Assembly: GCA_001799615.1 (NCBI GenBank)
Contig: MGTU01000008.1
Coordinates: 1-64,000, forward strand
Direction: 5' to 3'
Origin: Elusimicrobia bacterium GWA2_61_42
GTDB lineage: Bacteria > Elusimicrobiota > Elusimicrobia > Elusimicrobiales > UBA9959
Length of the DNA: 64,000 bases
Positions 18,764-62,548 of this stretch are shown here, piece after piece; position 1 is the first letter of the stretch; every line of letters begins with the position of its first letter. A program made the translations under genes and the position numbers. The notes beneath the pieces are model-generated. The model worked only from the letters and a program-made list of their open reading frames with translations. It was not told where the DNA came from and ran no database searches.

Positions 18764-18776
18764 GCGACAGCGCCCG

Positions 18777-18813
18777 AAAAGATCCCCGCGCAGTATGGCG
18801 GGGATCTTTTATT
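18777..18813 (+). terminator. Rho-independent terminator
   Basis: AAAAGATCCCCGC at 18777-18789 pairs with GCGGGGATCTTTT at 18798-18810, downstream of the helicase. Confidence 0.9.
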
Positions 18814-18887
18814 TGCGCCCCTATAAACTCCTGCCGGCACTAACATTCCGCCCGTATTTTTTGTATATTTGCCTAATAGGAGGGGGA

Positions 18888-42115: not shown

Positions 42116-42983
42116 GCTGCGCGCTCTGGCGTTCCTGCCGCTGCTCCTCGCCTGCGCGACGGCGGCGTCGGCCGGCAACACCCTGGCCGTGCTGACGGCC
42201 GACAGCGGGGCTTACCTGGAAGCTTTTTCCGCTTTCCAGGCGGCCTACGGCAGTGAGGTTCCCTATTTCAACATTTCACAGGAGACGCCCGTACTGCCTC
42301 CCGGCACGGAAACCGTGGTAGCGTTCGGCGGCAAGGCCGCCAATTACTCTTACCCCCAGGGCGTTTCGGTAGTCTACTGCATGGCCCCCGGCATCTTTGT
42401 CAAAAAACCTCCGCCCGTCGGCAAAGCCGTCAAGATCAGCCTCATCCCGGAGTTCGAAGTTATTTTCACGAAGCTCAAACAGATACAGCCGGAGCTAAAG
42501 CGCCTGCGCGTTTTCTGGATGACCCCTTCTTTCGCAGCTTTTTATGAGCCGGTAAGAACGATAGGAGAGCGCCTGGGGATAGAGGTTACCCCGGTGAAAG
42601 TCTCAAGCCAGGAAGAAATGCCCACCCTGCTAAGGGACGCGCTCGGCTCCGCGGACGCCTTCTGGCTGCCGCCGGACCCGCTGCTGGTAACCCCGGAAAA
42701 CCTTATGATAATGCGCGAGTTCTCCTGGGCCAACGCCATACCTTTTTACGGTTCCACCAAGGGCATGACCAAGGAAGGAGCCGCGGCTTCGGTAGGAGTC
42801 AGCTTCAAGGATATGGGGACGGCCGCGGCCGGAGCGGCGCTCCAGCTGAACGAGGGGAAAGTAATGCCGGGACTGTTCTTCCCGGCGGACGTAGAACTGA
42901 CGCTAAACGCCTCGGCCGCGAAAAAGTGCCGCCTGGAGCTGACCCCGGAGATCCTGCGCCAGGCGAATTACCTGTTCCCATGA
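42105..42983 (+). CDS. Periplasmic substrate-binding protein (PF04392-like), copy 2
   Basis: The 292-residue protein has a signal peptide (MNSRLRALAFLPLLLACATAASA) and the same blocks as copy 1 (QPELKRLRVFWMTPS, SADAFWLPPDPLLVTPENLM, NAIPFYGSTKGMTKEGAAAS, VELTLNASAAKKC). It overlaps the TonB receptor by 11 nt and the histidine kinase by 4 nt. With no ABC permease in the window, it may present its ligand to the periplasmic domain of the adjacent kinase rather than to a transporter. That role is inferred from gene order only. Confidence 0.78.
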   Translation: MNSRLRALAFLPLLLACATAASAGNTLAVLTADSGAYLEAFSAFQAAYGSEVPYFNISQETPVLPPGTETVVAFGGKAANYSYPQGVSVVYCMAPGIFVKKPPPVGKAVKISLIPEFEVIFTKLKQIQPELKRLRVFWMTPSFAAFYEPVRTIGERLGIEVTPVKVSSQEEMPTLLRDALGSADAFWLPPDPLLVTPENLMIMREFSWANAIPFYGSTKGMTKEGAAASVGVSFKDMGTAAAGAALQLNEGKVMPGLFFPADVELTLNASAAKKCRLELTPEILRQANYLFP

Positions 42984-44827
42984 AACTGTACTCTAAAATA
43001 TTCGCGTTCATCATAACCCTCATCGGCATCTCGATGTGGGTGAACATCCATTTTTCCAGGAAAACGGTCACCGAGGCGATGAGCGCCCAGATCACAGACA
43101 ACGCGGCTTCCGCGGTAAGGGACCTGGGCCCCACGCTCCAGCTGGCCATAGAATCCAGGAAAGAGCTTGAAGCCATAAAAGCCCTGCACGCTTTCGAGCA
43201 GAAAACCGGCGCCCTTTACGCCGCCATAGTGGCCCTGGACGGAACCATAATCGCCCATACGAACGTGGCGCTTACGGGCACACGGCTGGAAAGCCCGCTG
43301 CTGAAAAAGTTCGGGCAGACCGGGGCCAAACTTTTCAGGCGCGATACCCATAAAGGCGAGGAAACGGTGGAAGTGCTGCTGCCGCTCAACAACCGCACCC
43401 GGCCTTCCAACGAGGATATCCTGTTCGAAGGCCTGGGGGGAGGGGAGGCCCCGTCCGGCTTCATCCAGGCGGGACTGCCGCTGACCCAGGCGAAGAAGGC
43501 CGAGAAGGACATAATTTTCAAGCTTTTCATCCTGGCCATCCTGATCTCCGCCTCGGCGCTGGCGCTGTCGGCCATTTTCGTCCGCCTGATCATGGGCCAG
43601 CTCAACCACATCAGGGACGGCATACGAAAAGTACGCGACGGGAATTACTCGGTCGCGGTGCCGGTAGTGACCGGGGACGAGCTGGGTGACATCGCCGTCA
43701 GTTTCAACAAGCTGGCCAGCGGCCTGGCCGACACCACGGTCTCAAAACAGTACCTGGACTCCATCCTGGAGGGCATGCCCGACCCGCTTATCATCACCGA
43801 CGAAGAAGGCAACGTGCTGAAGGCCAATATGGCGGCGACGGAGTTTTCCGGCTACGACTTCATGCCGCCGGGCTCGCTGAACCTCAAAACCCTGCTGGAG
43901 CCGCAGACCGACGGCGGAGTGGCGCCTTTCAGCCTGCTTTCCTGGACCGGCCACACCAAGGAAATGGACCTGCTGCTCCTGGCGGAGGACGGCAGGCGCA
44001 TCCCCGTCATGCTTTCCGCCGCCTTTACCGGGGGCCCGGGCCGCAGGGAAGCCGTGATAGTGCTGAAGGACACCACCCAGCACAAGCAGTCGGAAGCCCG
44101 CGTGAGCCAATACCTCAAAGAGGTTGAAACCGTGAACAGCGAGCTGGACGCCTTCGCCCACACGGTCTCCCACGACCTCAAGGAACCGCTGCGCGGCATA
44201 GAGATGTTCTCGAATATCCTGCTTTCAGACTTCGGCAAGCAAATGGACCCGCAGGCCGCCGACTATCTCGCCCGCATCGTAAAGGCCGCCGGGCGCATGC
44301 GCCGCCTGATAGACGACCTCCTGGGCTACGCGCGGCTGGCGCGGGTAAGGAACCCCTACGAAGACGCGTCCACGGCCCAGCTGGCGGCCGAAGCCGCGGC
44401 GGCGCTGGCGCCGCTCATCGAAGAGAACAAGGCGCAGGTCAGCGTGGCCGAAAGCCTGCCCGTCCTTTTCTGCGACCCGGTCAAGATCCGCCAGGCTTTC
44501 CATAACCTTATCACCAACGCGATAAAGTACAACAAGAGCGGCGCCCCCAGGGTGGAGATAGCGGCGGAGAAGTTCGGCGAGTACTACTGGAAATTCTCCG
44601 TAAAGGACAACGGCATCGGGATCCCGAGCCAGTATTACGAAGACATCTTCAAGATGTTCAAACGGCTGCATTCGCGGGTAGAGTTCGGCGGGGGCACCGG
44701 GGCCGGGCTGACCATAGTGAAGAAGATCGTGGAAGAGCACGCCGGAAAAATATGGGTGGAATCCGTCGAGGGCAAGGGCTCCGTATTCTATTTTATAATC
44801 CCGGCCGACCTGCGGAACAAGCCTTAG
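42980..44827 (+). CDS. Membrane sensor histidine kinase (HAMP-PAS-HisKA-HATPase)
   Basis: The ATGA overlap with the binding-protein gene fixes the start. The 615-residue protein has a helix at about 6-26, a ~160-residue periplasmic sensor domain (YAAIVALDGTIIAHTNVAL is Cache/PAS-like), a second helix near 190-212, HAMP (GIRKVRDGNYSVAVP), PAS (YLDSILEGMPDPLIITDEEGNVLKANMA), HisKA with His in FAHTVSHDLKEPLRGIEMFS, and HATPase_c with NLITNAIKYN, DNGIGIP and GTGAGLTIVKKIV. The kinase core resembles the bacteriophytochrome/Rcp1 group, which matches the next gene, an Rcp1-like regulator. Confidence 0.92.
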   Translation: MKLYSKIFAFIITLIGISMWVNIHFSRKTVTEAMSAQITDNAASAVRDLGPTLQLAIESRKELEAIKALHAFEQKTGALYAAIVALDGTIIAHTNVALTGTRLESPLLKKFGQTGAKLFRRDTHKGEETVEVLLPLNNRTRPSNEDILFEGLGGGEAPSGFIQAGLPLTQAKKAEKDIIFKLFILAILISASALALSAIFVRLIMGQLNHIRDGIRKVRDGNYSVAVPVVTGDELGDIAVSFNKLASGLADTTVSKQYLDSILEGMPDPLIITDEEGNVLKANMAATEFSGYDFMPPGSLNLKTLLEPQTDGGVAPFSLLSWTGHTKEMDLLLLAEDGRRIPVMLSAAFTGGPGRREAVIVLKDTTQHKQSEARVSQYLKEVETVNSELDAFAHTVSHDLKEPLRGIEMFSNILLSDFGKQMDPQAADYLARIVKAAGRMRRLIDDLLGYARLARVRNPYEDASTAQLAAEAAAALAPLIEENKAQVSVAESLPVLFCDPVKIRQAFHNLITNAIKYNKSGAPRVEIAAEKFGEYYWKFSVKDNGIGIPSQYYEDIFKMFKRLHSRVEFGGGTGAGLTIVKKIVEEHAGKIWVESVEGKGSVFYFIIPADLRNKP

Positions 44828-44847
44828 TCATACTAGGAGAGAACACC

Positions 44848-45291
44848 ATGGTAAAGGAACCCGAGAACCTGAGCGTACTTCTTGTAGAGGACAACGAGGA
44901 CGACGTGCTCATAGCGCAGCGCGCCTTCCGCGAGTTCAAGGTAATTAACGAGGTGAACGTGGCGCGCGACGGGCAGGAGGCGCTGGACATGCTGTCCGCC
45001 TCCGGCCGGCATACCGGCAAAAAACCGCTCAGGCCCGCCCTCATCCTGCTGGACATCACCCTGCCGCTGATGGACGGGATGAACGTGCTCAAGCGCCTCA
45101 AAGCGGACCCGGCCCTGCGCGGCATCCCGGTGATCATGCTGACCACCTCCTCCAGGCACGAGGACATCGTGCGCAGCTACGAGAACGGCGCCGCCTCCTA
45201 CATCACCAAGCCGGCCTCGCTCGAAGACTTCCTTGAACTGGCCCGCAGGTTCGAAGCCTACTGGGTTACCGTTTCAAAGCTCCCGGTATAA
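44848..45291 (+). CDS. Rcp1-like single-domain response regulator
   Basis: AGGAG precedes ATG 44848. The 147-residue protein is a receiver domain only: VLLVEDNEDDVLIAQRAF (acidic pair), LILLDITLPLMDGMNVLKRLK with the phospho-accepting Asp, VIMLTTSS and ASYITKPASLEDF with the conserved Lys. Rcp1-type regulators partner phytochrome-class kinases like the one immediately upstream. It has no output domain, so it must act by protein contact or phosphorelay, perhaps with the GAF protein that follows. Confidence 0.93.
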   Translation: MVKEPENLSVLLVEDNEDDVLIAQRAFREFKVINEVNVARDGQEALDMLSASGRHTGKKPLRPALILLDITLPLMDGMNVLKRLKADPALRGIPVIMLTTSSRHEDIVRSYENGAASYITKPASLEDFLELARRFEAYWVTVSKLPV

Positions 45292-49556: not shown

Positions 49557-49585
49557 TTGACAAAACACAAACGATGACGTATACT
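49557..49585 (+). promoter_or_regulatory. Near-consensus promoter of the hydrogenase locus
   Basis: TTGACA at 49557-49562, exactly 17 nt, then TATACT at 49580-49585. Transcription is expected near 49592, leaving an ~84-nt leader before the first regulator gene. Confidence 0.85.
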
Positions 49586-49598
49586 ATTTACGTAGTCA

Positions 49599-49616
49599 AC
49601 GTTAATTGTGTAACGT
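49599..49616. promoter_or_regulatory. Candidate Rex operator
   Basis: An 18-bp palindrome, ACGTTA-N6-TAACGT, whose centre GTTAATTGTGTAAC matches the core of the clostridial/Thermotoga-type Rex site (GTTAA-N4-TTAAC) in nine of ten positions. It lies about 8 nt after the predicted start site, a repressor position, and the rex gene itself is the second gene of the locus. Confidence 0.45.
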
Positions 49617-49675
49617 GAATAAATAACGATGCCGCAGGCGCCGTTACAATCTAAACGAAGCGGATGGAGGAATGT

Positions 49676-50092
49676 ATGGCTAAGATACTCTGCATAGACG
49701 ACGATAAGGATATCCTGGACACCTGTGAAGTGGTGCTGCAGGGCCAGGGACACACCGTTGAAACCGCCATCAACGGCAGGGAAGGCTTCGAGAAGGCCGC
49801 CAAGCTCAAGCCGGACCTCATAATACTGGACGTCATGATGGACGATTCCACCGAAGGCTTCCAGACCGCCCAGAAGTTCCGCCGCACCGAAACCCTGAAA
49901 TACGTTCCGATACTGATGCTCACCTCGGTCAACGAAACCTCGCCCCAGAAGTTCGGCGAGAAGGACGGGGAATTCCTGCCCGTGGACGGTTTCATGGAGA
50001 AACCGGTAAAACCCAAGGAGTTCGTAGCCAAGGTAAAAGAACTGCTCGCGCTAACGAAAGACCAGGTCAACGTGGAAGGCCGCACGAAATAA
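49676..50092 (+). CDS. Single-domain response regulator
   Basis: GGAGG precedes ATG 49676 by 5 nt (an ATG 12 nt upstream overlaps the ribosome site and is not used). The 138-residue protein is a receiver domain: ILCIDDDKDILDTCEVVL, LIILDVMMDDSTEGFQTAQ with the phospho-accepting Asp, LMLTSVNETS and GFMEKPVKPKEF with the Lys. It resembles the regulator at 57003 (shared 'MMxx...GF' loop). It has no DNA-binding output, so it may take phosphate from the hydrogenase-linked kinases downstream. First gene of the hydrogenase operon. Confidence 0.9.
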   Translation: MAKILCIDDDKDILDTCEVVLQGQGHTVETAINGREGFEKAAKLKPDLIILDVMMDDSTEGFQTAQKFRRTETLKYVPILMLTSVNETSPQKFGEKDGEFLPVDGFMEKPVKPKEFVAKVKELLALTKDQVNVEGRTK

Positions 50093-50100
50093 GGAGCTTT

Positions 50101-50742
50101 ATGACGAGGATTCCCCAGCGTACCGTAGAAAGGTTCTTCCGTTACTGCCAGTTCCTGCACACCCGGCTGGAGGCCGGCTCGGAGCATGTCTTCTCCCATG
50201 AACTGGCCGCGGCGGTAGGAGTTTCGCCGGAACAGGTACGGCGCGACCTGATGAACTTCAAGCTGAAGGGCACCCCGCAACGGGGCTATCCCATACAGGA
50301 GTTCATGACCGAACTGTACGCGCACCTGGAATCCTCGTCCCTGACCAAGATGGTCCTGCTGGGGGTGGGGAACCTGGGAAAGGCCATCCTTTCCTATTTC
50401 CTCAAGCGCCGGCCCAACCTCTCCATAGTGGCGGCTTTCGACCAGGACCCGGAAAAGACCAACCGGGTCTACTCCGGCTGCCAGGTGCACCACATAGGCC
50501 AGCTGGAGAAGATCGCCTCGAGGGAAAAGGCCGCCGTGGGGATAATAACGGTGCCGGCTTCCGCCGCCCAGGAGGCCGCCGACGCGCTGGTACGCGCCGG
50601 GGTCAAAGGGATAGTCAACTTCGCCCCGGCCCAGATCAAGGTCCCGGCCGGAGTTTTCCTGGACCAGATCGACATCACGCTGTCCATAGAGAAAGCGGCG
50701 TATTTCGCACGCAAGAATTCACTCAAGGAGCAACTAAGATGA
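50101..50742 (+). CDS. rex: Redox-sensing transcriptional repressor Rex
   Basis: AAGGAG precedes ATG 50101. The 213-residue protein has an N-terminal winged helix (IPQRTVERFFRYCQFL, SHELAAAVGVSPEQVRRDLMNF) and a Rossmann domain with GVGNLG at 88-93, AAFDQDPEK and VPASAAQEAADALVRAGVKGIVNFAP. Rex represses fermentation and respiratory genes when NADH is low and releases DNA when NADH rises. Its place inside a NAD(H)-linked hydrogenase operon with a candidate operator in the leader suggests autoregulation and control of H2 production. Stop and next start overlap (ATGA). Confidence 0.95.
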   Translation: MTRIPQRTVERFFRYCQFLHTRLEAGSEHVFSHELAAAVGVSPEQVRRDLMNFKLKGTPQRGYPIQEFMTELYAHLESSSLTKMVLLGVGNLGKAILSYFLKRRPNLSIVAAFDQDPEKTNRVYSGCQVHHIGQLEKIASREKAAVGIITVPASAAQEAADALVRAGVKGIVNFAPAQIKVPAGVFLDQIDITLSIEKAAYFARKNSLKEQLR

Positions 50743-51224
50743 GCGCGCAAAGCAGGGTTGAAAAAGTCCTGGAAAAATACAGCTTCGCCACGCGCGACAA
50801 GCTGATCCCTATTTTACAGGACGTGCAGGGCGAGGACGGCTATATTTCCAAGCACGCCGCCCTCAAGGTCGCCAAACATCTCAACATCCCGGCCAGCAAG
50901 GTTTACGGGGTAGCCACGTTTTACAACCAGTTCCGCTTCAAACCCGTGGGCCGCAACCATATCCTGGTCTGCCGCGGCACCGCCTGCCACGTCAAAGGCT
51001 CCGCCGCTGTACTCAAGATGGCGGAGGAAGTCCTGGGCATCAAGGCGGGAGACACTACGCGCGACGGCCTTTTCAGCATCGAAGTGGTGGCCTGCATAGG
51101 GGCCTGCGGCCTGGCCCCCGTCATCAGCATCAACGGCGAGTTCCACGCGAAGATAACCCCGGACAAGCTCCGCAAGCTCGTGGACGACATCAGGAAAACG
51201 GAGAAATCCAATGGCGCAAAATAA
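50739..51224 (+). CDS. hydC: Bifurcating [FeFe] hydrogenase subunit C (NuoE-like)
   Basis: The 161-residue protein has the NuoE/HndA thioredoxin-like [2Fe-2S] fold with its four Cys in CRGTACHVKG and CIGACGLAP (C-x4-C ... C-x3-C), preceded by the NuoE-typical LIPILQDVQGEDGYISKHAALKVAKHLNIPASKVYGVATFYNQF. It relays electrons within the HydABC complex, close to the NADH/FMN subunit. It overlaps rex by 4 nt and hydB by 14 nt. Confidence 0.93.
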   Translation: MSAQSRVEKVLEKYSFATRDKLIPILQDVQGEDGYISKHAALKVAKHLNIPASKVYGVATFYNQFRFKPVGRNHILVCRGTACHVKGSAAVLKMAEEVLGIKAGDTTRDGLFSIEVVACIGACGLAPVISINGEFHAKITPDKLRKLVDDIRKTEKSNGAK

Positions 51225-53172
51225 CGGCGTTATAGAACACAACCTGGCCGGCATCCCAGCCTCGGCCCGCAAGGCCTTCCTTACCAGGGCCTTCGGCTCG
51301 GAAGAGTTCGCCGCGAAGGCGGCTCAGCTCAGAAGGGAAAACCCCGCCAGGCCCGTCATCTACGTAGGGGCCGGCACCTGCGGCCTGGCGGCCGGCGCGG
51401 CAAAAACCCTGGAGGCCGTCCGCAAGTATTTAAAGGACAACGGCCTGGACGCCGACGTCCTGGAAGTGGGCTGTATCGGCTACTGCGCCGCGGAGCCGCT
51501 GCTCGACGTGCAGCTGCCGGGGCAGGCCCGTCTCTCATTCCAGCGCGCCGCCGGCGACGTCACCCCGGCCCTGCTGGATTCCGTTTTCAAGGACAAAGCC
51601 CCGCTGAAGGACCACGTGCTCGGCCAATTCGAGGACGGGGGGAAGAAATGGCCCAAGGTTCCGCTGTTCTCCGAACACCCCTTCTTCTCCAAGCAGCTGC
51701 GCTACGTGCTGAAACACGTGGGGATAGTGGACCCGCTTTCCATCCAGGAGCACATCGCCCGCGGCGGCTACGGTGCCTTCCTTAAAGTAATACATACCAT
51801 GACGCCGGCCCAGGCCTGCGACGCGGTGGAGGCCAGCGGCCTGCGCGGCCGCGGCGGCGGCGGTTTCCCCACCGGCAAAAAATGGAAGATAGCGCTGTCT
51901 TCCGACGCCGACCAGAAGTACATAATCTGCAACGCCGACGAGGGAGACCCCGGCGCCTTCATGGACCGCTCCGTCATAGAGGGCGACCCGCACCGGGTGC
52001 TGGAAGGCATAGCCATAGGGGCCTACGCCATCCACGCCTCCAAGGCCTACATCTACATCCGCGCGGAATACCCGCTGGCGATCAAGAACCTTAAGAAGGC
52101 CATAGCCGAGGCCAAAGCCTACGGCCTGCTGGGCGAGAACGTCTACGGCAGCGGCTTCGATCTGGACGTGATCATAAAGATGGGCGCCGGCGCCTTCGTC
52201 TGCGGCGAGGAAACCGCCCTGATGAACAGCATCGAGGGCCGCCGCGGCATGCCCAAGCCCCGCCCGCCCTACCCGGCGGTGAAGGGCCTGTTCGGCAAGC
52301 CCACCGTCATCAACAACGTGGAGACCTTCGCGAACGTCCCCGAGATCATGTCCCAGGGGCCCGCGGCCTTCGCCGCCATCGGCACTAAAGGGTCCAAGGG
52401 CACCAAGGTGTTCGCGCTGTCCGGCAAGGTGAACCGCACCGGCCTGGTGGAGATCCCGATGGGCACGACCCTCAGGGAAATAGTTTTCGACATCGGCGGC
52501 GGCATAGAGAACGGGCTCGCCTTTAAAGCCGTGCAGATAGGCGGCCCGTCGGGCGGCTGCATCCCGCAAAGCCACATGGACATCCAGGTGGACTACGAGT
52601 CCCTCAAGACCGTAGGCGCCATGATGGGTTCGGGCGGCCTCGTCGTGATGGATGAAAAGACCTGCATGGTCGACGTGGCCAAGTTCTTCATGGACTTCAT
52701 AAAGAAAGAATCCTGCGGCAAGTGCATCCCCTGCCGCGAGGGCACGCTGCGCATGCTCGAGATCCTCAAAGCGATCACGCGCCACCGCCGCGGCGAGAAG
52801 GACGCCGACGCCCTGGCCCGCTTCTCCGGCATCATTAACCTGGAGAACCTCTCGCAGGTGATACGCGAAACCAGCCTCTGCGGCCTCGGCCAGACCGCCC
52901 CTAACCCGGTGCTGTCCACGCTGCGCTGGTTCCGCGACGAGTACGAGGCGCATATCTTCGAGCGCAAGTGCCCGGCCGGCGCCTGCACCGAGATGCTGGA
53001 GTTCACCATCGACGCCGACAAATGCAAAGGCTGCACGCTCTGCGCCAAGGGCTGCCCGACGCAGGCCATAGTCGGCAAGCCCAAAGTCCCGCACTACATC
53101 ATAGCCGAGAAGTGCATCTCCTGCGGCTCCTGCAGGACAGTGTGCAAATTCAAGGCCGTCAACGCGGCCTGA
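51211..53172 (+). CDS. hydB: Bifurcating [FeFe] hydrogenase subunit B (NuoF-like, NADH/FMN)
   Basis: The 653-residue protein has an N-terminal thioredoxin-like [2Fe-2S] part (YVGAGTCGLAAG, LEVGCIGYCAAEPL), the NuoF core with GLRGRGGGGFPTGKKW (FMN) and NADEGDPGAFMDRSVIEGDPH, the [4Fe-4S] site ESCGKCIPCREGT, and two C-terminal ferredoxin clusters (CKGCTLCAKGCP and CISCGSCRTVC). This is the full architecture of HydB/HndC in trimeric bifurcating hydrogenases, which couple H2 to both NAD+ and ferredoxin. An 11-nt gap separates it from hydA. Confidence 0.95.
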   Translation: MAQNNGVIEHNLAGIPASARKAFLTRAFGSEEFAAKAAQLRRENPARPVIYVGAGTCGLAAGAAKTLEAVRKYLKDNGLDADVLEVGCIGYCAAEPLLDVQLPGQARLSFQRAAGDVTPALLDSVFKDKAPLKDHVLGQFEDGGKKWPKVPLFSEHPFFSKQLRYVLKHVGIVDPLSIQEHIARGGYGAFLKVIHTMTPAQACDAVEASGLRGRGGGGFPTGKKWKIALSSDADQKYIICNADEGDPGAFMDRSVIEGDPHRVLEGIAIGAYAIHASKAYIYIRAEYPLAIKNLKKAIAEAKAYGLLGENVYGSGFDLDVIIKMGAGAFVCGEETALMNSIEGRRGMPKPRPPYPAVKGLFGKPTVINNVETFANVPEIMSQGPAAFAAIGTKGSKGTKVFALSGKVNRTGLVEIPMGTTLREIVFDIGGGIENGLAFKAVQIGGPSGGCIPQSHMDIQVDYESLKTVGAMMGSGGLVVMDEKTCMVDVAKFFMDFIKKESCGKCIPCREGTLRMLEILKAITRHRRGEKDADALARFSGIINLENLSQVIRETSLCGLGQTAPNPVLSTLRWFRDEYEAHIFERKCPAGACTEMLEFTIDADKCKGCTLCAKGCPTQAIVGKPKVPHYIIAEKCISCGSCRTVCKFKAVNAA

Positions 53173-53182
53173 GGATAACATC

Positions 53183-54907
53183 ATGAAACTGATCGTCAAC
53201 GGACAGACCGTAGAGGCCCAGGCGGGGGAAACGCTGCTCACCGTGCTCAAGCGCGAGGGGATAAACGTCCCCACGCTCTGCCACATGGAAGGCATGCTGC
53301 CCTCGGGCGCGTGCCGCATCTGCGTGGTGGAAGTGGAAGGGCAGAACAACCTGATCCCCAGCTGTTCCTTCCCCGCCGCGGAGGGCATGAAGATACAGAC
53401 CAACAGCCCGCGCGTGATAAACGCCCGCAAGACCGTGGTCGAACTGCTGCTGGGGTCCCACCCCGACGACTGCCTTTACTGCGCCAAGCAGCCCACCTGC
53501 GACCTCAACCGCCTCAGCCGGGATTACGGCGTGACCAGCCGCCGCTTCCCGGTGGCGAAGAAGAAGAAACCCCTGGACATCTCCAGCCCGTCCATCTCCC
53601 GCGACCCGGACAAGTGCATCCTCTGCGGCAAATGCGTGCGCGTCTGTGAGGAAGTGCAGAGCGTGGCCTGCATAGATTTCGTCAAGCGCGGCTCCGACTC
53701 TTTCATCGGCTGCGCCTTCGACTCCAGCCTCAACGTTTCCTCCTGCGTCAACTGCGGCCAGTGCATCAACGTCTGCCCCACCGGCGCGCTGATGGAGAAG
53801 AGCGATATCCAAACCGTTACGGAAGCGATGGCGGACAAGAATAAATACGTGGTCGTGCAGCATGCCCCGTCCATCTCCGTGTCTTTGGCCGAGGAGTTCG
53901 GACTGGCGGCCGGGACCGACGTCAACGGCGTGATGACCGCGGCTTTCAGGAAGATGGGGTTCAAGGCGGTCTTCGATACCTCCTTCGCGGCGGACCTTAC
54001 AATAATGGAGGAAGCCTCCGAACTGGCGCACCGCATAAAGACGGGCGGCGTACTGCCGATGATGACCTCCTGCTCCCCGGGCTGGATAAAGTTCGTGGAA
54101 ACCTTCTACCCGGAACTGCTGCCCAACCTCTCCACCTGCAAAAGCCCGCAGCAGATGCTGGGCGCGATGATCAAGACCTATTACGCCAAGAACCAGGGCC
54201 TTAACCCCGGCAAGCTCTTCAGCGTTTCGGTCATGCCCTGCACCGCCAAGAAGTTCGAAGTGACCCGCCCCGAGATGGGCCGCGAAGGGAACCCCGACAT
54301 AGACGCCGTGCTCACCACGCGCGAACTCGCCCAGATGCTGCGCATCCACGGCATCGACCTCAAGACCCTCTCGCCCGAAGAGCCCGACATGCCCTTCGGC
54401 GACCGCAGCACGGCGGGAAAACTGTTCGGCGCCTCGGGCGGCGTGATGGAAGCGGCGCTGCGCACCGCGCATTTCCTGCTCACCGGCAAGGAACTGGGCG
54501 CCCTGAAGGTGGAAGCCGTGCGGGGCCAGGCCGGCATAAAGGAAGCCAGGCTCAAGATCGGCGCCCTGGAAGTGGGCGTGGCGGCCGTCAGCGGCCTGGG
54601 CAACGCCCGCAAACTCGCCGAGGAGATCAAGAACGGCCGCAAAGACCTGCACTTTATCGAAGTAATGACCTGCCCCGGCGGCTGCATCAACGGGGGCGGC
54701 CAGCCTTTCGCCCGCAACAAAGCCGCCATTGTAGAGCGCATGCGCGCCCTCTACACCATAGACGCCACGGAGAAGCTCCGCACCTCGCACGGCAATAAAG
54801 CCGTGCAGTCCCTCTACAAGGATTTCCTGGGCAAGCCCCTGGGAGAGAAGAGCCACCATCTGCTGCACACCAAGTACACGAAAAGGAAGGCGTCCGACGT
54901 GGCCTAG
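53183..54907 (+). CDS. hydA: [FeFe] hydrogenase catalytic subunit A (HndD/HydA-like)
   Basis: The 574-residue protein has an N-terminal [2Fe-2S] domain (CHMEGMLPSGACRIC), a His-ligated cluster (HPDDCLYCAKQPTC), two [4Fe-4S] clusters (CILCGKCVRVC, CVNCGQCINVCP), and the H-cluster domain with L1 TSCSPGW (295-301), L2 MPCTAKKFE (351-359) and L3 EVMTCPGGCINGGGQP, and a small C-terminal extension. It catalyses reversible H2 formation. The second Cys of the usual TSCCPxW is Ser here; see findings. It is the M3-type subunit of a trimeric complex with HydB and HydC. Confidence 0.95.
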   Translation: MKLIVNGQTVEAQAGETLLTVLKREGINVPTLCHMEGMLPSGACRICVVEVEGQNNLIPSCSFPAAEGMKIQTNSPRVINARKTVVELLLGSHPDDCLYCAKQPTCDLNRLSRDYGVTSRRFPVAKKKKPLDISSPSISRDPDKCILCGKCVRVCEEVQSVACIDFVKRGSDSFIGCAFDSSLNVSSCVNCGQCINVCPTGALMEKSDIQTVTEAMADKNKYVVVQHAPSISVSLAEEFGLAAGTDVNGVMTAAFRKMGFKAVFDTSFAADLTIMEEASELAHRIKTGGVLPMMTSCSPGWIKFVETFYPELLPNLSTCKSPQQMLGAMIKTYYAKNQGLNPGKLFSVSVMPCTAKKFEVTRPEMGREGNPDIDAVLTTRELAQMLRIHGIDLKTLSPEEPDMPFGDRSTAGKLFGASGGVMEAALRTAHFLLTGKELGALKVEAVRGQAGIKEARLKIGALEVGVAAVSGLGNARKLAEEIKNGRKDLHFIEVMTCPGGCINGGGQPFARNKAAIVERMRALYTIDATEKLRTSHGNKAVQSLYKDFLGKPLGEKSHHLLHTKYTKRKASDVA

Positions 54908-54944: not shown

Positions 54945-56984
54945 ATGACACCCGATAATGAGCCGCTGGTAAAGACCTTAAAAGAACGCTGCAAGGCGTG
55001 CTATACCTGCGTCCGCGGCTGTCCCGCCAAGGCCATCCGCATCTCCGGCGGCCAGGCCGAGGTCATAAAAGAGCGCTGTATAGGCTGCGCCAACTGCGTG
55101 CTGATGTGCAGCCGCGGCGCCAAGGAGACGCTCGATTCCACGCGCGCGGTGATAGCCCTGCTTAAAAGCGGCGCGCCCGTAGCCGCGGCGCTGGCCCCCA
55201 GCTTCCCCGTGGAGTTCGGGGGCATAGACCCGCTGCGCTTCGCCGGCATGCTCAAAGCCCTGGGATTCAAATTCGTCTGCGAAGTCGCCTTCGGCGCCGA
55301 CATGGTCTCCACGCAGTACCGCAAGCTCATCAACGAAAACCCCGGCAAGAAATTCATCAGCACGGCGTGCCCCGCCGTGGTCTCCTTCGTGGAAAAATAT
55401 CACCCGGCCCTCGTGCCCAACCTGGCGCCCATAGTCTCCCCGATGGTCGCCGAAGCCCGCGTCATCCACGAGCTGTACGGGCGCGACGTTAAAGTGGTTT
55501 TCATCGGCCCCTGCGTCGCCAAGAAGGAAGAAACCTCGCGCAACCTGGCCGACATCGAGGAATCCATAACTTTCATCGAGCTCCGCGCCCTCTTAAAAGA
55601 AGCCGGCGTGGACCGCAACACGGCCCTGGACTCGCAGTTCGACCCGCCGCACCCCGCCAAGGGCGTGCTCTACCCCATGGGCGGCGGGCTGCTCAACTCG
55701 GCCGAGCTGCCGGAGGACCTGCTGAGCGGGCGCTTCCTCTCCGCCGAAGGCCTGGAGAACTTTCCCGAAGTGCTCAAGAACCTAGAGCACGGGGACATTG
55801 ACGCCGATTTCATAGACCTGCTCTGCTGCAACGGCTGCATCATGGGCCCCGGCATCAGCGTTAAATCTTCCAAGCACGCCCGGGAAGCCGCGCTGCGCCG
55901 CTACGCCCGCAAAAGCTATTTCAGCATCCGCCTCAACGACTGGGAAGAATCCGTGCGGCGCTTCCGCAGCATGGACTACTCCGCCTCCTTCGCCCCCGAG
56001 GACAGGCGCATGAAGCTGCCCAACAAGGAAGAGCTCCGGGCGGTCCTGGCCAAGATGGGCAAGGTAAACCCGGAGGACGAACTGAATTGCGGCGCCTGCG
56101 GGTACCCGAACTGCGTAGAGCACGCCGTCGCCATCATCCGGGGCATCGCCGAAAGCGAGATGTGCCTGCCGTACACCATAGACCGCCTGAAGAGCACGGC
56201 CGAGGAACTGACCCTCTCCTACAACCAGCTGGGCAAGACCAAGCAGGCCCTGATGCAGTCCGAGAAACTGGCCAGCATGGGCCAGCTGGCCGCCGGCGTG
56301 GCGCACGAGCTCAACAACCCGCTGGGCGTGGTACTCCTTTACTCTCACCTGCTGGCGGAGCAGTGCCAGAAGGATTCCCGTACCTTCGCGGACGCCAGGA
56401 TGATAACGGAGCAAGCCGACCGCTGCAAGAAGATCGTGGGCGGGCTGCTCAACTTCGCCCGCAAGAACAAGCCTTTCTTCCGGCAGACCAGCCTGGTGCG
56501 GCTGGTAGACAGCTATTTCAAGACGGCCCCGCTGCCCGCCTCCATCAGGATCACGGTAGACCGTTCGGGAGAGGACCTGCAGGCGGAGATGGACCCGGAC
56601 CAGATAATCCAGGTGCTGACCAACCTGGTGACCAACGCGCTGGAAGCCATGAGCGGCGGCGGGGCGCTGACCATACGCACCTTCGCCGAGCGCGAGAGCG
56701 TGGCGTTCAGCGTTTCGGACACCGGCGGCGGCATAAAGCCGGATAATATTAAAAAGATCTTCGAGCCGTTCTTCACCACCAAACAGATCGGCAAAGGCAC
56801 CGGCCTGGGCCTGGCGGTCTCCTACGGCATCATCAAGGTGCACCGCGGCAACATCACCGTGCAGAGCAATTCGGACGCGGCGAACGGCCCGACTGGCACC
56901 ACCTTCACGGTGAAGCTGCCGCGCGTGGCCAAAGACGCCGGCGCCATCAAGATGAAGCCGGAAGCGCCCGGCAAACAAATTTAG
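54945..56984 (+). CDS. Hydrogenase-like H2/redox sensor fused to a histidine kinase (HydS-HK)
   Basis: The 679-residue protein has a two-[4Fe-4S] ferredoxin ([23 protein letters not shown]; residues 16-55), a hydrogenase-like H-domain with altered motifs STACPAV (139-145), GPCVAKK (188-194) and [12 protein letters not shown] (292-303), an additional Fe-S domain (CGACGYPNC...C, 382-407, PF04060-like), then HisKA with His454 in GVAHELNNP and HATPase_c with [18 protein letters not shown] and [12 protein letters not shown]. The L1 proton-relay Cys is Ala, a mark of sensory (HydS-type) domains. It should report H2 or redox state to the adjacent regulators. No clear Shine-Dalgarno sequence. Confidence 0.9.
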
Positions 56985-57002
56985 GAGCGACAGGAGAATA
57001 CT

Positions 57003-57413
57003 ATGACCGACAAGAAGAAGATAAAGATCCTGGTGGTGGAAGACGACCCCGATATGATGGACCAGATGAAGATCTACCTGGAATCCGAGAACTACGAAGT
57101 TATCGCCGCCTGCAACCAGAAAGAGGCGGAACCGCTCATCCAGCCCGGCGGGTTCCAGGCGGCCGTCCTGGACCTGATGATGGAGAACCCGGACTCCGGT
57201 TTCGTGCTGAGCCACAAGATCAAGAAGCTCGACGCGAAGATCCCGGTCGTCATAGTTACCTCCGTCACCAAGGAAACCGGCTTTTATTTCGACAAAGCCC
57301 ATGACCCGAAAGCCTGGATCAAGGCCGACGCGATTATCCACAAAGAGCTGCGCTTCGAGCAGCTCAAGGCCGAGCTTAAGCGCCTGCTGGGCGCGGGTGA
57401 GAGTCATGCCTGA
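57003..57413 (+). CDS. Single-domain response regulator
   Basis: AGGAG lies 10 nt upstream. The 136-residue receiver has KILVVEDDPDMMDQMKIYL, AVLDLMMENPDSGFVLSHKI with the phospho-accepting Asp, VVIVTSVTKET and an unusually long C-terminal region (YFDKAHDPKAWIKADAIIHKE). It lies 18 nt after the HydS-kinase and overlaps the receiver-kinase gene by 8 nt. It is the most likely direct phosphate acceptor of the HydS-kinase. No output domain. Confidence 0.9.
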   Translation: MTDKKKIKILVVEDDPDMMDQMKIYLESENYEVIAACNQKEAEPLIQPGGFQAAVLDLMMENPDSGFVLSHKIKKLDAKIPVVIVTSVTKETGFYFDKAHDPKAWIKADAIIHKELRFEQLKAELKRLLGAGESHA

Positions 57414-58581
57414 CCCCCTGCCCCTGCACCAGCTCGACGTGCTTATCGTCGACGACGAAGCCGGCATGCGCACCGGCGCGGAGCGGTCGCTCGAGGGCTT
57501 CTCGGTGCCGCTGCCGGACTTCAACGAAACCGTCGCCTTCACGGTGCGCGCCGCCGCCACCGGAGAGGAGGCCCTGGCCGCCCTTAAGGCCAAGACCCCG
57601 GATATCGTGCTGCTCGACTACAAGCTGCCCGACATGACCGGCATAGACGTGCTGGCCGCCGCCCCGGAACCTCACTTCCTGACCATAATGATAACCGCGT
57701 TCGCTTCCCTGGAAGTGGCGGTGACCGCCACCAAGCGCGGCGCCTTCGATTTCCTGGCCAAGCCGTTCACGCCGGAGGAGCTGCGCGCCACCATCTCCAA
57801 GGCCGCCCGCAGCATCTACCTGCACCGCAAGGCGAGGAAGCTGGAAGAGGAGAAGCGCCAGGTACGCTTTGAGTTCATCTCAGTGCTGGCGCACGAGCTG
57901 AAATCCCCGCTGGCCGCGGTGGAAGGCTATATGCATTTGATGAAGGAGCGCATCAAAGGCCCGGAGCTGGCCGGTTACGACTCCATGGTGGACCGCAGCG
58001 TGGTAAGGATAGCGGGCATGAGAAAGCTGGTGATGGACCTGCTGGACCTGACCCGCCTGGAGTCTGGCAAGAAAAAGCGCGCCCTGGAGACCGTGGACCT
58101 GGTGAAAGCCGCCGGGCTGGCCATGGAAGCCGTCGCGGCGCTGGCGGAAGCGAAGGGCATAAGAGTGGAGCTGAAGGCCCCGCCCGCGCTGCCCATGAAC
58201 GCGGACGCCGGAGAGATAGATATTATGCTTTCGAACCTGCTCACCAATGCCGTAAAATACAACAAGCAGGGCGGCAGTGCCGTACTGGAGCTGGAACGCT
58301 TGGCGCCGGGCTCGGCGCTCATCCGCTGCACTGACACCGGCATAGGCATGACCGAAGAAGAACTGGGCAAACTCTTCGGTGAATTCGTCCGGATGAAGAA
58401 CGAGCACACGCGCGCCATAGACGGCAGCGGGCTGGGCCTGTCCATCCTTAAAAAAGTGGTAAAGCTTTACGGGGGGGAAGTACGGGTGACATCGAAATAC
58501 GGGGAGGGTTCGTCCTTCGAGCTGTCGCTGAAGGACGCTGAAGTGCCCGCTGCCGGCACCGAACCGGCGCTGCGCCCCTAG
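57406..58581 (+). CDS. Receiver-histidine kinase (REC-HisKA-HATPase)
   Basis: ATG 57406 is used; the longer frame upstream is only open. The 391-residue protein has an N-terminal receiver (VLIVDDEAGMRTGAERSL, IVLLDYKLPDMTGIDVL with Asp, FDFLAKPFTPEEL), a HisKA domain (FISVLAHELKSPLAAVEGYMH) and HATPase_c (NLLTNAVKYNKQGG, DTGIGMT, GSGLGLSILKKVV). Receiver-first kinases act as relays whose kinase activity is set by phosphorylation. It probably sits second in the H2-sensing cascade. It is 19 nt from hydG. Confidence 0.92.
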   Translation: MPDPLPLHQLDVLIVDDEAGMRTGAERSLEGFSVPLPDFNETVAFTVRAAATGEEALAALKAKTPDIVLLDYKLPDMTGIDVLAAAPEPHFLTIMITAFASLEVAVTATKRGAFDFLAKPFTPEELRATISKAARSIYLHRKARKLEEEKRQVRFEFISVLAHELKSPLAAVEGYMHLMKERIKGPELAGYDSMVDRSVVRIAGMRKLVMDLLDLTRLESGKKKRALETVDLVKAAGLAMEAVAALAEAKGIRVELKAPPALPMNADAGEIDIMLSNLLTNAVKYNKQGGSAVLELERLAPGSALIRCTDTGIGMTEEELGKLFGEFVRMKNEHTRAIDGSGLGLSILKKVVKLYGGEVRVTSKYGEGSSFELSLKDAEVPAAGTEPALRP

Positions 58582-58600: not shown

Positions 58601-60076
58601 ATGCAGACCACTACGGTCAACGCGGACAGTTATGCCGGCCATCTTAAAGACGGCCGCGACTTCATAGACGACGCCGCCCTGCGCCGGGCCCTCGCGGCCC
58701 CGCAGCCCTCCGCGCAGCGCGTGCGGGACATCCTCGCCCGCTCCCTGGCGGTTTCCGAAGCCCTCTCGCCGGAAGACGCGGCGGCCCTCATAGCCGTGGA
58801 AGACCCCGGCCTGCTGGAAGAGATCTTCGAAGCGGCCCGCGCCGTGAAACGCAAGGTCTACGACAACCGCATCGTCACCTTCGCGCCGCTCTACGCCTCC
58901 AACTTCTGCGTCAACAACTGCCTCTACTGCGGCTTCCGCACGGGCAACGAAGGGGCGGTCCGCCGCAAGCTCTCCATGACGGAGATAAAGGCCGAGGCGG
59001 AGGCGCTGGCCGGCAAAATAGGCCATAAACGCATAATCTTCGTGACCGGCGAGCACCCCGCCACCGGCGCGCAATACATAGCTGACGCGATGCGCGAGAT
59101 CTACGCCGTAAAGGTTAAGACCCGGCGCGGCTTCGGCCAGATACGCCGCGTCAACGTCAACGCCGCCCCCATGAGCGTGCCCGACCTGAAACTTTTAAAA
59201 ACGGCCGGCATCGGCACCTACCAGGTCTTCCAGGAAACCTACGACCGCGAACTTTACGCCAAACTCCACCCCGGTACTACCCCCAAAGCGGACTACCGCT
59301 GGCGCCTTTACGTCATGCACCGCGCCTTCGAGGCCGGCATCGACGACGTGGCGCTGGGCGCCCTGTTCGGGCTGGGCGACTGGAAATTCGAAGTGCTGGG
59401 GCTGGTGGCGCACTCCCGCGAACTCGAAGCCCGCTTCGGCATAGGCCCGCATACCATCTCCTTCCCGCGGCTGGAAACCGCCGACGGCACGGACCTGCCC
59501 AGCCGCAGCCTCGAGAACGTGCCGGACAAGGACTTCAAAAAACTGGTGGCCGTGCTGCGCCTTTCCGTGCCCTACGCCGGCATAATAGTTACCGCCCGCG
59601 AGCGCCCCGAGACCATCCGCGAAGTCATCGGCATGTGCACCCAGCGCGACGCCTCCACCCGCATAGGCATAGGCGCCTACTCCGAGCGCTACGGCGCCCA
59701 GGAAGCCGAAAAACAGCAGTTCCTGCTCGGCGACACCCGCACCCTCGACGAAGTCATCGGCGAGCTGGCGGACCTGGGTCATATCACCTCCTTCTGCACC
59801 TCCGGCTACCGCTGCGGCCGCACCGGCGACCACATCATGAAGCTCCTCAAGAGCGGCCACGAGTCGCGCTTCTGCAAGCTCAACGCCGTGCTCACCTTCC
59901 GCGAATGGCTGGACGACTTCGCCTCCGACGCCACCCGCGCCAAAGGCGAAGCCCTCATAAAAAAAGAAATCGCCGAGATCCGCGCCCGCGAAAAAGACTT
60001 CCCTCCCGAAACCGTAAAACTCCTGGACGCCTACTACGCCCGCATCGAGAAAGGCGAGAGGGACCTATGCTTTTAA
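58601..60076 (+). CDS. hydG: [FeFe] hydrogenase maturase HydG (radical SAM, tyrosine lyase)
   Basis: GGGAGG precedes ATG 58601. The 491-residue protein is a ThiH-like radical SAM enzyme: CVNNCLYC (CxxxCxxC, near 104-111), GEHPATGAQYI, RVNVNAAPMSV, YQVFQETYD. HydG splits tyrosine to make the CO and CN ligands of the H-cluster. At its C-terminus, where the auxiliary cluster needs CX2CX22C, the protein has Cys399, Gly402, Cys405 and Cys425 (CTSGYRCGRTG...FCKLN), so the middle Cys is shifted by three positions. Assignment is secure from the whole-protein match and the neighbours. Confidence 0.93.
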   Translation: MQTTTVNADSYAGHLKDGRDFIDDAALRRALAAPQPSAQRVRDILARSLAVSEALSPEDAAALIAVEDPGLLEEIFEAARAVKRKVYDNRIVTFAPLYASNFCVNNCLYCGFRTGNEGAVRRKLSMTEIKAEAEALAGKIGHKRIIFVTGEHPATGAQYIADAMREIYAVKVKTRRGFGQIRRVNVNAAPMSVPDLKLLKTAGIGTYQVFQETYDRELYAKLHPGTTPKADYRWRLYVMHRAFEAGIDDVALGALFGLGDWKFEVLGLVAHSRELEARFGIGPHTISFPRLETADGTDLPSRSLENVPDKDFKKLVAVLRLSVPYAGIIVTARERPETIREVIGMCTQRDASTRIGIGAYSERYGAQEAEKQQFLLGDTRTLDEVIGELADLGHITSFCTSGYRCGRTGDHIMKLLKSGHESRFCKLNAVLTFREWLDDFASDATRAKGEALIKKEIAEIRAREKDFPPETVKLLDAYYARIEKGERDLCF

Positions 60077-60288: not shown

Positions 60289-61281
60289 ATGAACAAGAAA
60301 GAACTAGTCGACGCGCTCTCCCCGGATACGGACCCGGCGCCGCTCTTCGCCCTGGCCGATAAGATCCGCCGCGAGCAGGTCGGCGACGGCGTCCACCTGC
60401 GCGGCCTCATAGAATTCTCCAACCACTGCCGCCGCCGCTGCTACTACTGCGGCATCCGCGCCGCCAACGCCAAAGTGCGCCGCTACCGCCTCACCCCCGA
60501 GCAGATCCTCGACTGCGCCCGCACCGCCGTCAGCCTCAACTATAAAAGCGTAGTGATGCAGTCGGGCGAAGATCTCCATTGGAACCCCAAGGAACTGGCC
60601 TCCGTGGTCGAGAAAATAAAGACCACCACCAGCCTCGCCATCACCCTCTCCGTCGGCGAACACTCCAAGGAAGACTACACAACCCTGCGTTCCGCCGGCG
60701 CCGACCGCTTTCTCCTCCGCTTCGAGACCTCGGACCGCCGGCTCTTCTCCATGCTCAAACCCGACTCCAATTACGACCAGCGCTTCCGCTGCCTCGCCTG
60801 GCTCAAAGAAGCCGGTTTCCAGGTCGGCTCCGGCGTCATGGCCGGCCTCCCCGGCCAGACCGCCGCCAGCATGGCCGACGACATCCTCCTTTTCAAAGAA
60901 CTCGACCTCGACATGGTCGGCATCGGGCCCTTCATAGCCAACCCCGACACCCCGTTGGGAGCCGCGCCCAACGGCAGCCTGGATACCGCGCTCAGGATGG
61001 TAGCCCTCACCAGGATAGTCACCAGGAACACCCATATCCCCGCCACCACCGCCATGGGCACCCTGCACCCCCAGGGACGACAGAAAGCCCTCAAATGCGG
61101 CGCCAACGTGCTGATGCCCAACATCAGCCCCACCGAGCACCGCACCGATTACAGCCTGTACCCCGGCAAGATCTGCGTCAACGAGGCCCCGGAACAATGC
61201 GCCGGCTGCGTCGACGCCATGCTGGCCGGCCTCGGCCGCCAGCGCGCCGAAGGCTTCGGCCACTCTTTAAAGCAGGTGTAA
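60289..61281 (+). CDS. hydE: [FeFe] hydrogenase maturase HydE (radical SAM)
   Basis: The 330-residue protein has CRRRCYYCG (CxxxCxxC) at about 45-53, VVMQSGEDLHW, LSVGEHSKEDY and the HydE/BioB-type GPFIANPDTPLG and PTTAMGTLHPQGRQKAL blocks. HydE acts in building the di-iron dithiolate subcluster. No Shine-Dalgarno sequence precedes ATG 60289, and the hairpin array separates it from hydG, so translation may depend on its own message or on coupling. hydF follows 10 nt later. Confidence 0.93.
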   Translation: MNKKELVDALSPDTDPAPLFALADKIRREQVGDGVHLRGLIEFSNHCRRRCYYCGIRAANAKVRRYRLTPEQILDCARTAVSLNYKSVVMQSGEDLHWNPKELASVVEKIKTTTSLAITLSVGEHSKEDYTTLRSAGADRFLLRFETSDRRLFSMLKPDSNYDQRFRCLAWLKEAGFQVGSGVMAGLPGQTAASMADDILLFKELDLDMVGIGPFIANPDTPLGAAPNGSLDTALRMVALTRIVTRNTHIPATTAMGTLHPQGRQKALKCGANVLMPNISPTEHRTDYSLYPGKICVNEAPEQCAGCVDAMLAGLGRQRAEGFGHSLKQV

Positions 61282-61291
61282 GACTCTAATT

Positions 61292-62548
61292 ATGAACACC
61301 ACACCAAAATCCATGCGGCTGCAGATCGCCATCTTCGGGCGCACCAATGTCGGAAAATCCAGCGTCCTCAACATGCTGGCCGGCCAGGACGTCGCCATCA
61401 CCTCGCCCGTCCCCGGCACCACCACCGACGTCGTAGAGAAAGCCATGGAACTGCTCCCCGTCGGGCCCGTAGTCTTCCTCGACACCGCCGGCCTCGACGA
61501 CAAAAGCGAACTCGGCGCCCTGCGCACCGCGCGGGCGCGCAAAGTCTTCGACCGCGCCGACGCCGCGCTCCTGGTAGTAGAGCCCTCGGGCTGGGGCCCC
61601 TGTGAAGCCGACATAGCCGCCGCCGCCGAAGAAAAGAACATCCCTCTCATAGTCCTCATCAACAAAACCGACATCAGCGGCCCCTCGCCCGAACTCACCG
61701 AAGCCCTCAAAGCCCGCGGCATCACCCCCATAACCTGCGCCGCCACCGTCAAAGAACACCGGGAAGCCGCCGTAGAAGCCGTCAAACAGCGCCTCCTGGC
61801 GCTGACCGGACGCGCCGCGCAAAGTCAGCGCGCCATACTCGGAGACCTGGTCCGCCCCGGCGAAACCGTCATCTTCATAATCCCCATAGACAAGGAAGCC
61901 CCCAAAGGCCGCATCATACTGCCGCAGGTGCAGGCCATGCGGGACCTGCTGGACCACGGCGCCCTCTTCCTGACCGCCAGGGAGCACGAATACCCCCAGG
62001 CCCTGGCCGCCCTGAAAAAAGCGCCCGCGCTGGTGGTCTGCGACTCGCAGGTGGTGGACTTCATGGTCAAGCACACCCCGGCGGGCGTGCCCTGCACCAC
62101 CTTCTCCATACTCTTCGCCCGCTTCAAAGGCGACCTGGCCGCCTACGCGCGCGGCGCGGCCGCGATACGGAACCTGCGCCCCGGCGACAGCCTGGCCGTG
62201 CTGGAGGCCTGCTCGCACCACGCCATCGAGGACGATATCGGCCGCGTAAAGCTACCCAAATGGCTGAAAGAAACCGCGGGAGGGGAACTGAAGATAGATA
62301 CTTTTTCAGGCAGGGACCTGCCGGCTAACATCGCGGACTACAAACTGGTCATCCAGTGCGGCGGCTGCATGCTCACCCGCACCGAGATCCTGGGCCGCAT
62401 GGGCAAAGCCGCCGGCGCAGGGGTACCGATAAGCAATTACGGGGTGGCCATCTCGGAGTGCAAAGGCGTATTGGAAAGAGTGCTGTCGCCGTTCCCGGAA
62501 GCCCTGGCGGCTTACCGGGAAGGGGCCGGCGCCAAAGCCAGGCAGTAG
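61292..62548 (+). CDS. hydF: [FeFe] hydrogenase maturase HydF (GTPase and scaffold)
   Basis: The 418-residue protein has an Era/TrmE-like GTPase (FGRTNVGKSSV, VPGTTTDVV, DTAGL, INKTD), a dimerisation middle domain, and a C-terminal Fe-S domain with SHHAIEDDIGR, KLPKWL and CGGCM, matching the conserved HydF cluster motif (H...CxxC). It carries and delivers the diiron subcluster to HydA. Its last 37 nt overlap convergently with the next gene on the other strand. Confidence 0.93.
   Translation: MNTTPKSMRLQIAIFGRTNVGKSSVLNMLAGQDVAITSPVPGTTTDVVEKAMELLPVGPVVFLDTAGLDDKSELGALRTARARKVFDRADAALLVVEPSGWGPCEADIAAAAEEKNIPLIVLINKTDISGPSPELTEALKARGITPITCAATVKEHREAAVEAVKQRLLALTGRAAQSQRAILGDLVRPGETVIFIIPIDKEAPKGRIILPQVQAMRDLLDHGALFLTAREHEYPQALAALKKAPALVVCDSQVVDFMVKHTPAGVPCTTFSILFARFKGDLAAYARGAAAIRNLRPGDSLAVLEACSHHAIEDDIGRVKLPKWLKETAGGELKIDTFSGRDLPANIADYKLVIQCGGCMLTRTEILGRMGKAAGAGVPISNYGVAISECKGVLERVLSPFPEALAAYREGAGAKARQ

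Follow-up and report, generated by a model that had tools for sequence, protein, structure and literature searches.

The window analysed here is the whole of a 64,000-nucleotide stretch (positions 1 to 64,000, forward strand) of contig MGTU01000008.1 from Elusimicrobia bacterium GWA2_61_42 (assembly GCA_001799615.1). At positions 54945–56984 it encodes a 679-residue protein, here called HydSK, in which a hydrogenase-like sensor of the HydS type is joined directly to a histidine kinase, within the operon of a bifurcating [FeFe]-hydrogenase. A first-pass annotation made from the sequence had proposed this fusion and its domain order, followed by a receiver and a receiver-kinase between hydA and hydG; Pfam, together with NCBIfam assignments of the neighbours, bears out both the coordinates and the arrangement. 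The gene order in this Elusimicrobiota genome is RR1-rex-hydCBA-SK-RR2-RRHK-hydGEF:

49664–50092, + strand: RR1, a single-domain receiver (Pfam Response_reg)
50101–50742, + strand: Rex, redox-sensing repressor, the sole copy found in the genome by search (NCBIfam Rex)
50739–51224, + strand: HydC, NuoE-like (Pfam, NCBIfam)
51211–53172, + strand: HydB, NuoF-like with C-terminal 4Fe-4S sites (Pfam, NCBIfam)
53183–54907, + strand: HydA, group A catalytic subunit of the bifurcating type (Pfam, NCBIfam)
54945–56984, + strand: HydSK, hydrogenase-like sensor histidine kinase, 679 aa (Pfam, structural model, Foldseek)
57003–57413, + strand: RR2, a single-domain receiver with D14, D15, D57, T86 and K114 (Pfam, alignment)
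57406–58581, + strand: RRHK, receiver plus HisKA and HATPase_c, with D71, H163 and N277 (Pfam, alignment)
58601–60076, + strand: HydG maturase (NCBIfam)
60289–61281, + strand: HydE maturase (NCBIfam)
61292–62548, + strand: HydF maturase (Pfam)

Gaps of no more than 37 nt from HydA through to HydG make a single operon likely, and RRHK, starting at 57406, overlaps the end of RR2 by 8 nt. HydA scored 818 bits with the NCBIfam model of group A6, whose cut-off is 765. The L1 motif of this protein (53183–54907) reads TSCSP, with Ser at the position of C300 in CpI, and has identical letters in HydA1 of A. woodii; Ser at this position is common in 4/5 of the sub-types described in PMC11406978.

Pfam places 4Fe-4S domains at residues 13–59 of HydSK, Fe_hyd_lg_C at 78–302 (E = 4.2e-45), the FeS domain PF04060 at 380–409 (6e-9), HisKA at 445–508 (1.2e-11) and HATPase_c at 550–660 (2.9e-25). 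A Foldseek search with the AlphaFold2 model of the protein listed [FeFe]-hydrogenases at the top and placed the ZraS kinase ninth. On the DNA, the parts of HydSK lie as follows:

54981–55121, + strand: two 4Fe-4S sites with eight Cys, all eight invariant in 70/70 fusions (Pfam)
55176–55850, + strand: H-domain, with H-cluster ligands C142, C190, C295 (or C294) and C298 (Pfam, alignment)
56082–56171, + strand: C-terminal Cx2Cx4Cx16C cluster site, PF04060 (Pfam, alignment)
56166–56363, + strand: single predicted helix, residues 408–473, running from the final Fe-S Cys past the phospho-acceptor H454 (AlphaFold2 model, heptad spacing)
56277–56924, + strand: HisKA plus HATPase_c kinase (Pfam, alignment)

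Residue conservation was counted over 70 aligned kinase-fused proteins, with CpI residue numbers transferred to HydSK by hand mapping. The H-cluster cysteines C142, C190, C295 and C298, those of the C-terminal cluster (C382, C385, C390 and C407) and the H, N, G1 and G2 residues of the kinase were present in 70/70; the absence of Fe-S ligands from such an alignment, which the annotation had named as speaking against its reading, was therefore not seen, and it is the spacing of the L3 motif that is altered across the clade. In CpI numbering, K358 was kept in 70/70 proteins and A230, P231 and S232 in 69/70 each, positions that we take to be contacts of the [2Fe] cyanides, holding the cofactor. 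The C299 position, by contrast with the catalytic enzymes, was never Cys (Ser 18, Asp 18, Thr 17, Ala 9, Pro 7, Asn 1), that of E279 was Tyr in 67/70 and never Glu, that of E282 was Glu in 2/70, that of S319 was Ala in 62/70 and Ser in 1/70, and that of M353 was Gly in 70/70. HydSK itself has Ala141, Tyr125, Leu128, Ala161 and Gly188: C299 and the group A proton path are lost, and a small residue stands at 353. In place of the catalytic group A signature (TSC.P, MPC..K, C299) it has STACP and GPCVAK with no Cys at 299, and all three motifs named in the annotation (STACP, GPC, CCNGC) are present. Loss of the proton path is reported in known sensory enzymes (PMC8163306), and the active-site residue pattern of the fusions matches that reported for such enzymes (PMC10055695, PMC8163306). 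Both halves of HydSK are, judged by substitution rates, under purifying selection, with dN below dS against each of nine genus members.

The AlphaFold2 model (mean pLDDT 88.6, pTM 0.70) contains a helix spanning residues 408–473, which starts directly after C407 and has block means of pLDDT 61–70 at residues 431–460. The spacing from C407 to H454 was 46 residues in 53 of the 70 fusions, 39 in 16 and 32 in one. These values differ by whole heptads, and so fit a coiled-coil signalling helix. The rule is particular to this helix, since the linker between H-domain and Fe-S domain varies in length (74 and 80–87 residues), mostly by single steps. Judged by eye on the tree, the heptad spacing would need some four independent changes, each with an estimated chance of 1 in 7.

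The HydSK gene was found in 17 of 32 genomes of the genus (its own included), with sensor identities of 68–100%; in the other 15, several of them incomplete, the best sensor match had E = 5.7e-5, whereas a HydA by itself reaches roughly 1e-10 to 1e-15 against the sensor. All 17 copies adjoin hydA together with a receiver and a receiver-kinase; contig ends cut some of the 17 operons, and in locus L044 the receiver-kinase is truncated in this way. The gene order of the window is kept in 15/17, and in L047 and L048 the receiver precedes the kinase. In these two loci HydB is about 1,085 aa long (2105–5362 in L047, 3553–6798 in L048), and in that of L047 Pfam adds Fer4_20 and a pyridine-nucleotide-disulphide oxidoreductase (GltD-like) part. 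One genome, G030 (locus L035), has a single in-frame TAA in each of hydA and the fusion gene (2319–2321 and 4151–4153), leaving the fusion in two pieces, which reflects either decay of the operon or sequence errors. Another, G029, carries a second HydS, with a PAS domain (L045, 11655–13427), which shares its contig with the kinase-bearing operon and lies upstream of it, behind the end of another hydA-like gene.

Across the phylum, 27/340 genomes gave a match of at least 393 bits, with open frames of at least 675 aa except in G030. Its own family has 26 genomes in which an H-domain was matched at all, and HydSK was present in 25 of them (the exception being G036). It was not found in the second family of the order, some members of which have a HydS of 566–595 aa without a kinase; Pfam detected PAS in that of L052 and none in that of L049. 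Among viral contigs no relative was found. Chance or an assembly artefact as the source of the fusion was rejected, given its recurrence across the genus and at distant loci.

Distant loci were taken as the best 79 of at least 587 candidates, ranked by score to HydSK (named genomes, sensor alignment). A kinase follows the sensor in the same frame in 74/79; as the loci were picked by score to HydSK, this figure is no estimate for HydS proteins at large. The remaining five are L090 (interrupted frame), L099 (contig end), L125, L126 and L128. By record titles and taxonomy labels the best-scoring loci span at least 15 phyla. Neighbourhoods were counted with home-made profiles over 76 loci, L090 and L099 being retained. 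HydA lies directly upstream of the fusion in 61/72 loci, a lone receiver adjoins it in 60/68, a receiver-kinase follows downstream in 57/64, and both partners occur in 52/64 testable loci. This supports the picture given by the annotation, in which a kinase joined directly to a HydS-like sensor has its own relay and is tied to a bifurcating hydrogenase, and the relay proves to be conserved. In RR2 (63 rows) the phospho-Asp and Lys, and in RRHK (61 rows) the Asp, Lys, His and Asn, are each conserved at 1.00. With flanks that were short, Rex was seen in 31/76 loci, maturases in 23/76 and NtrC-type regulators in 3/76.

In the tree, the proteins with a short L3 loop fall in a clade of 85 rows that includes L125 (support 100/99), with L125 sister to the other 84 (90/80); the L052 HydS and the group B row sit on long branches and their placement is unsure. 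The kinase rows do not lie to one side of a branch, because kinase-free Bacteroidota rows nest inside. Thirteen such kinase-free Bacteroidota H-domain proteins were recognised (in L064, L078, L123, L074, L086, L088, L131 and six other loci); the tree includes eight, all placed within the kinases. All 13 are missing the GPC..K-type L2 motif, with no PC..K/R in the seven that were re-read; at L3, nine have C-x-G-C, and those of L074, L086, L088 and L131 have no cysteine pair. Mostly these paralogues lie about 6.7 kb upstream on the opposite strand; in L126 the paralogue is the matched gene itself. Standing beside an intact sensor kinase, they are possibly its partners or antagonists. Among kinase-free HydS proteins in general, Pfam found PAS in the second copy of L045, L052, L128 and L086, and none at E ≤ 0.001 in L049, L126, L064, L078, L123, L131, L074 and L088; the PAS status of L050, L051 and L143–L145 was judged by eye only.

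Two features precede the operon:

49557–49585, + strand: sigma-70-type promoter TTGACA-17-TATACT, 11/12 consensus bases
49600–49615, no strand assigned: inverted repeat CGTTA-N6-TAACG, immediately following the −10 box, a candidate operator (alignment, genome search)

The promoter pattern arose in 0/100 shuffles. An alignment of the window with 14 genus members (leaving out L036 and L042, where RR1 lies off their stretches; L054 was unmatched by the motif) showed TTGACA kept in 15/15 sequences and the second hexamer altered in L047 and L048. The inverted repeat is exact in 14/15 (L045 is the exception) and occurs once in the 2.95-Mb assembly. Identification of a Rex operator by consensus was rejected: the best matches to a clostridial Rex consensus reached 9–12/14, shuffles scored at least 10 in 251/2000, and the best match in the window (9) lies outside the inverted repeat. 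As the consensus score is not above chance, we claim only the inverted repeat itself. That Rex binds at 49600–49615 is plausible.

We consider it fairly probable that HydSK is a cytoplasmic sensor kinase whose HydS-type [FeFe]-hydrogenase input matches HydABC to the H2 level through the relay. In the proposed mechanism H2, or H2/redox poise, would alter the state of a modified, complete H-cluster, and the C-terminal Fe-S domain would take up the change. As a coiled coil of fixed register, the helix behind the fourth cysteine of that domain would carry it to the dimerisation helix with H454, where it would set the balance between kinase and phosphatase activity. From there RR2 and the RRHK receiver would take up phosphate, to be handed on by RRHK and perhaps also by RR1. 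The purpose would be to match the neighbouring bifurcating HydABC to the H2 level, and Rex would in parallel sense NADH/NAD at the promoter.

Several points weigh against this reading, the first being the active site itself. L3 is one residue short, with CxxC against the canonical CxxxC, in 69/70 fusions (the exception is L082); we regard this shortening, on the evidence of the alignment, as the new point in reading the active site. The CCNGC of the window contains both spacings, CxxxC from C294 and CxxC from C295, and its first Cys could restore the canonical one; position 294, however, is Cys in 36/70 and not Cys in 34/70, and the spacing that is constant over the fusions is CxxC. The counts were taken from the alignment, a regular expression being ambiguous for CC types; ten further phylum members combine a short L3 with a kinase, eight of them CC types and thus ambiguous singly. 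CxxxC was retained in 9/9 HydS proteins without a kinase (the second copy of L045, L049–L052, L128 and L143–L145), of which five were placed outside the clade and four are absent from the tree; L049–L051 are near-copies. Position 497 is also unfavourable, being Leu in 69/70 fusions: in CpI with M497L the [2Fe] site is not properly integrated (PMC10055695), though TamHydS, which is active, likewise has Leu there (PMC8163306). The nested Bacteroidota proteins add that an H-domain can outlive its cofactor-binding motifs.

These observations could be explained by a sensor of redox (ferredoxin/NADH poise) or of O2 acting through its [4Fe-4S] clusters, the [2Fe] site of the H-domain having been lost or changed and H2 not being the ligand. 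The altered L3, Leu at 497 and loss of the classical proton path would all suit such a sensor; C142, C190 and the CxxC together could ligate an ordinary [4Fe-4S] cluster, and the absence of a GPC..K-type L2 from 13/13 Bacteroidota paralogues weighs somewhat in its favour, without shifting our estimate. It sits poorly with the retention, in the kinase-fused proteins, of K358 and of A230-P231-S232, the presumed cofactor contacts, and we think it unlikely. The maturases seen in 23/76 loci do not discriminate here, because HydA alone needs them. Another idea is that HydSK reports cofactor supply, the kinase being switched by an empty as against a HydEFG-filled H-domain, as a check on H-cluster maturation. 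Maturases do stand in the same operon here, and the H-cluster residues are conserved where the catalytic proton-path residues are not, but maturases were detected in only 23/76 loci, although with short flanks, and we consider this explanation very improbable.

We know of no measured H2 response for any kinase-fused member. The physiological role of HydS is called unclear or putative in PMC10055695 and PMC13104023. The relay, too, has gaps: the receiver-kinase was undetected in 7/64 loci and the lone receiver in 8/68, some missed partners being accounted for by contig ends and that of L109 being a receiver-PAS-HisKA protein cut by the locus. Moreover, Pfam recognised no DNA-binding domain in RR1, RR2 or RRHK, and a fourth receiver protein of the window found by profile search (44506–45288) is receiver-only and likewise without one. 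Neither this protein nor the further kinases of the window (42548–44824 and 18732–21257; HAMP/PAS and a weakly matching Cache domain in one, several PAS domains in another) has a visible tie to the hydrogenase operon.

The lack of a DNA-binding domain in the four receiver proteins found would be expected if the relay tuned the enzyme after translation, with the single-domain receivers RR1 and RR2 binding HydABC or its partners, and lone receivers adjoining hydC or hydA do recur among relatives. Clusters of some relatives, on the other hand, encode DNA-binding outputs. An NtrC-type regulator stands behind the kinase in L121 and upstream in L102 and L109, and NarL-type regulators stand upstream in L079, L084 and L098. 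In L125 (Clostridia, JAAYOX010000124.1, 2108–4318) the same HydS-type sensor, behind hydA, is fused to a sigma-54 activator and a Fis-type HTH; this protein is, by its domains, a one-protein hydrogenase-domain transcription activator. From these outputs it is likely that transcription was an ancestral output, and we regard tuning of the enzyme by the receivers as somewhat unlikely. The annotation had proposed that H2 controls hydrogenase expression through this relay together with Rex; the relatives lend indirect support to a transcriptional output, which the relay of the window may have.

An H2-sensing hydrogenase that feeds a two-component system controlling hydrogenases is familiar from the [NiFe] regulatory hydrogenase and HoxJ. 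Its metal site and proteins are unrelated to those of HydSK, and its kinase is separate. The [NiFe] regulatory hydrogenase appears as group 2b in the table of PMC5037454, where the HydDB classes C1 and C3 of [FeFe]-hydrogenases are termed 'histidine kinase-linked' and 'phosphatase-linked'; as in HydSK, a sensory H-domain is there predicted to be coupled with kinases, and the passage of that table makes no mention of fusion. C1 hydrogenases linked to kinases are also reported in PMC8542988, PMC6163223 and PMC7768429.

Closest to HydSK is the BfuT described in Hydrogenedentota, a hydrogenase of group C3 that bears a histidine-kinase domain and is encoded next to bifurcating hydrogenases; the organisation of these clusters, sub-type V, is common to Calditrichota (PMC11406978). 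Like it, HydSK has a kinase domain on an H-domain protein and a gene next to the bifurcating A subunit. The view in the first-pass annotation that the fusion is a distinct and undescribed arrangement therefore does not stand: the hydrogenase-kinase fusion is already published, and it is not rare. Our best-scoring matches include the Hydrogenedentota loci L056 and L097, the former also with receiver and receiver-kinase. The same paper describes three Bacteroidota clusters with two bfuT genes each, which fits the kinase-free paralogues found here. The main text of that work contains 'response regulator' 0 times, and HydSK comes from another phylum. In the literature surveyed, which takes in few subscription papers, we met no mention of the receiver/receiver-kinase pair, of heptad spacing or of an altered L3, which is weak evidence of novelty.

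Of the sensory enzymes studied elsewhere, TmHydS (group C / M2f) shares with HydSK the two N-terminal clusters, an H-domain without C299 and with Gly at 353 (PMC10055695, PMC8163306), the C-terminal cluster and a tie to the operon of another hydrogenase. It differs in carrying PAS, where HydSK has no PAS by Pfam but HisKA and HATPase_c, and in having Ser rather than Leu at 497; L3 is altered in HydSK. TamHydS (group D / M2e) shares the Cx2Cx4Cx16C domain, the lack of PAS and Leu at 497 (PMC8163306, PMC13104023), and is flanked by a gene for a histidine-kinase-like ATPase, so that the kinase is separate there and fused in HydSK. It has Ser at 353, where group D / M2e wants Ser or Thr, unlike the Gly of HydSK and of 70/70 fusions.

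A wider reading, which we put forward tentatively and at somewhat less than even likelihood, is that the kinase-linked clade forms a gas-sensor class of its own, spread over at least 15 phyla, with an H-cluster pocket remodelled when L3 changed to CxxC once, on the stem, a mechanical coupling by a heptad-locked coiled coil that sets out from the fourth Fe-S cysteine, and a fixed three-protein phosphorelay governing bifurcating hydrogenases; a Clostridial relative would have the sigma-54 output, and the kinase-free paralogues of Bacteroidota would perhaps be partners or antagonists. How HydS proteins transfer their signal is described as open, and their interaction partners as not known, in PMC13104023. 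With the sensor joined to its kinase and the receivers adjacent, HydSK makes this transfer directly testable, and its shortened L3 would be a test of how much alteration the H-cluster site tolerates without losing its cofactor.

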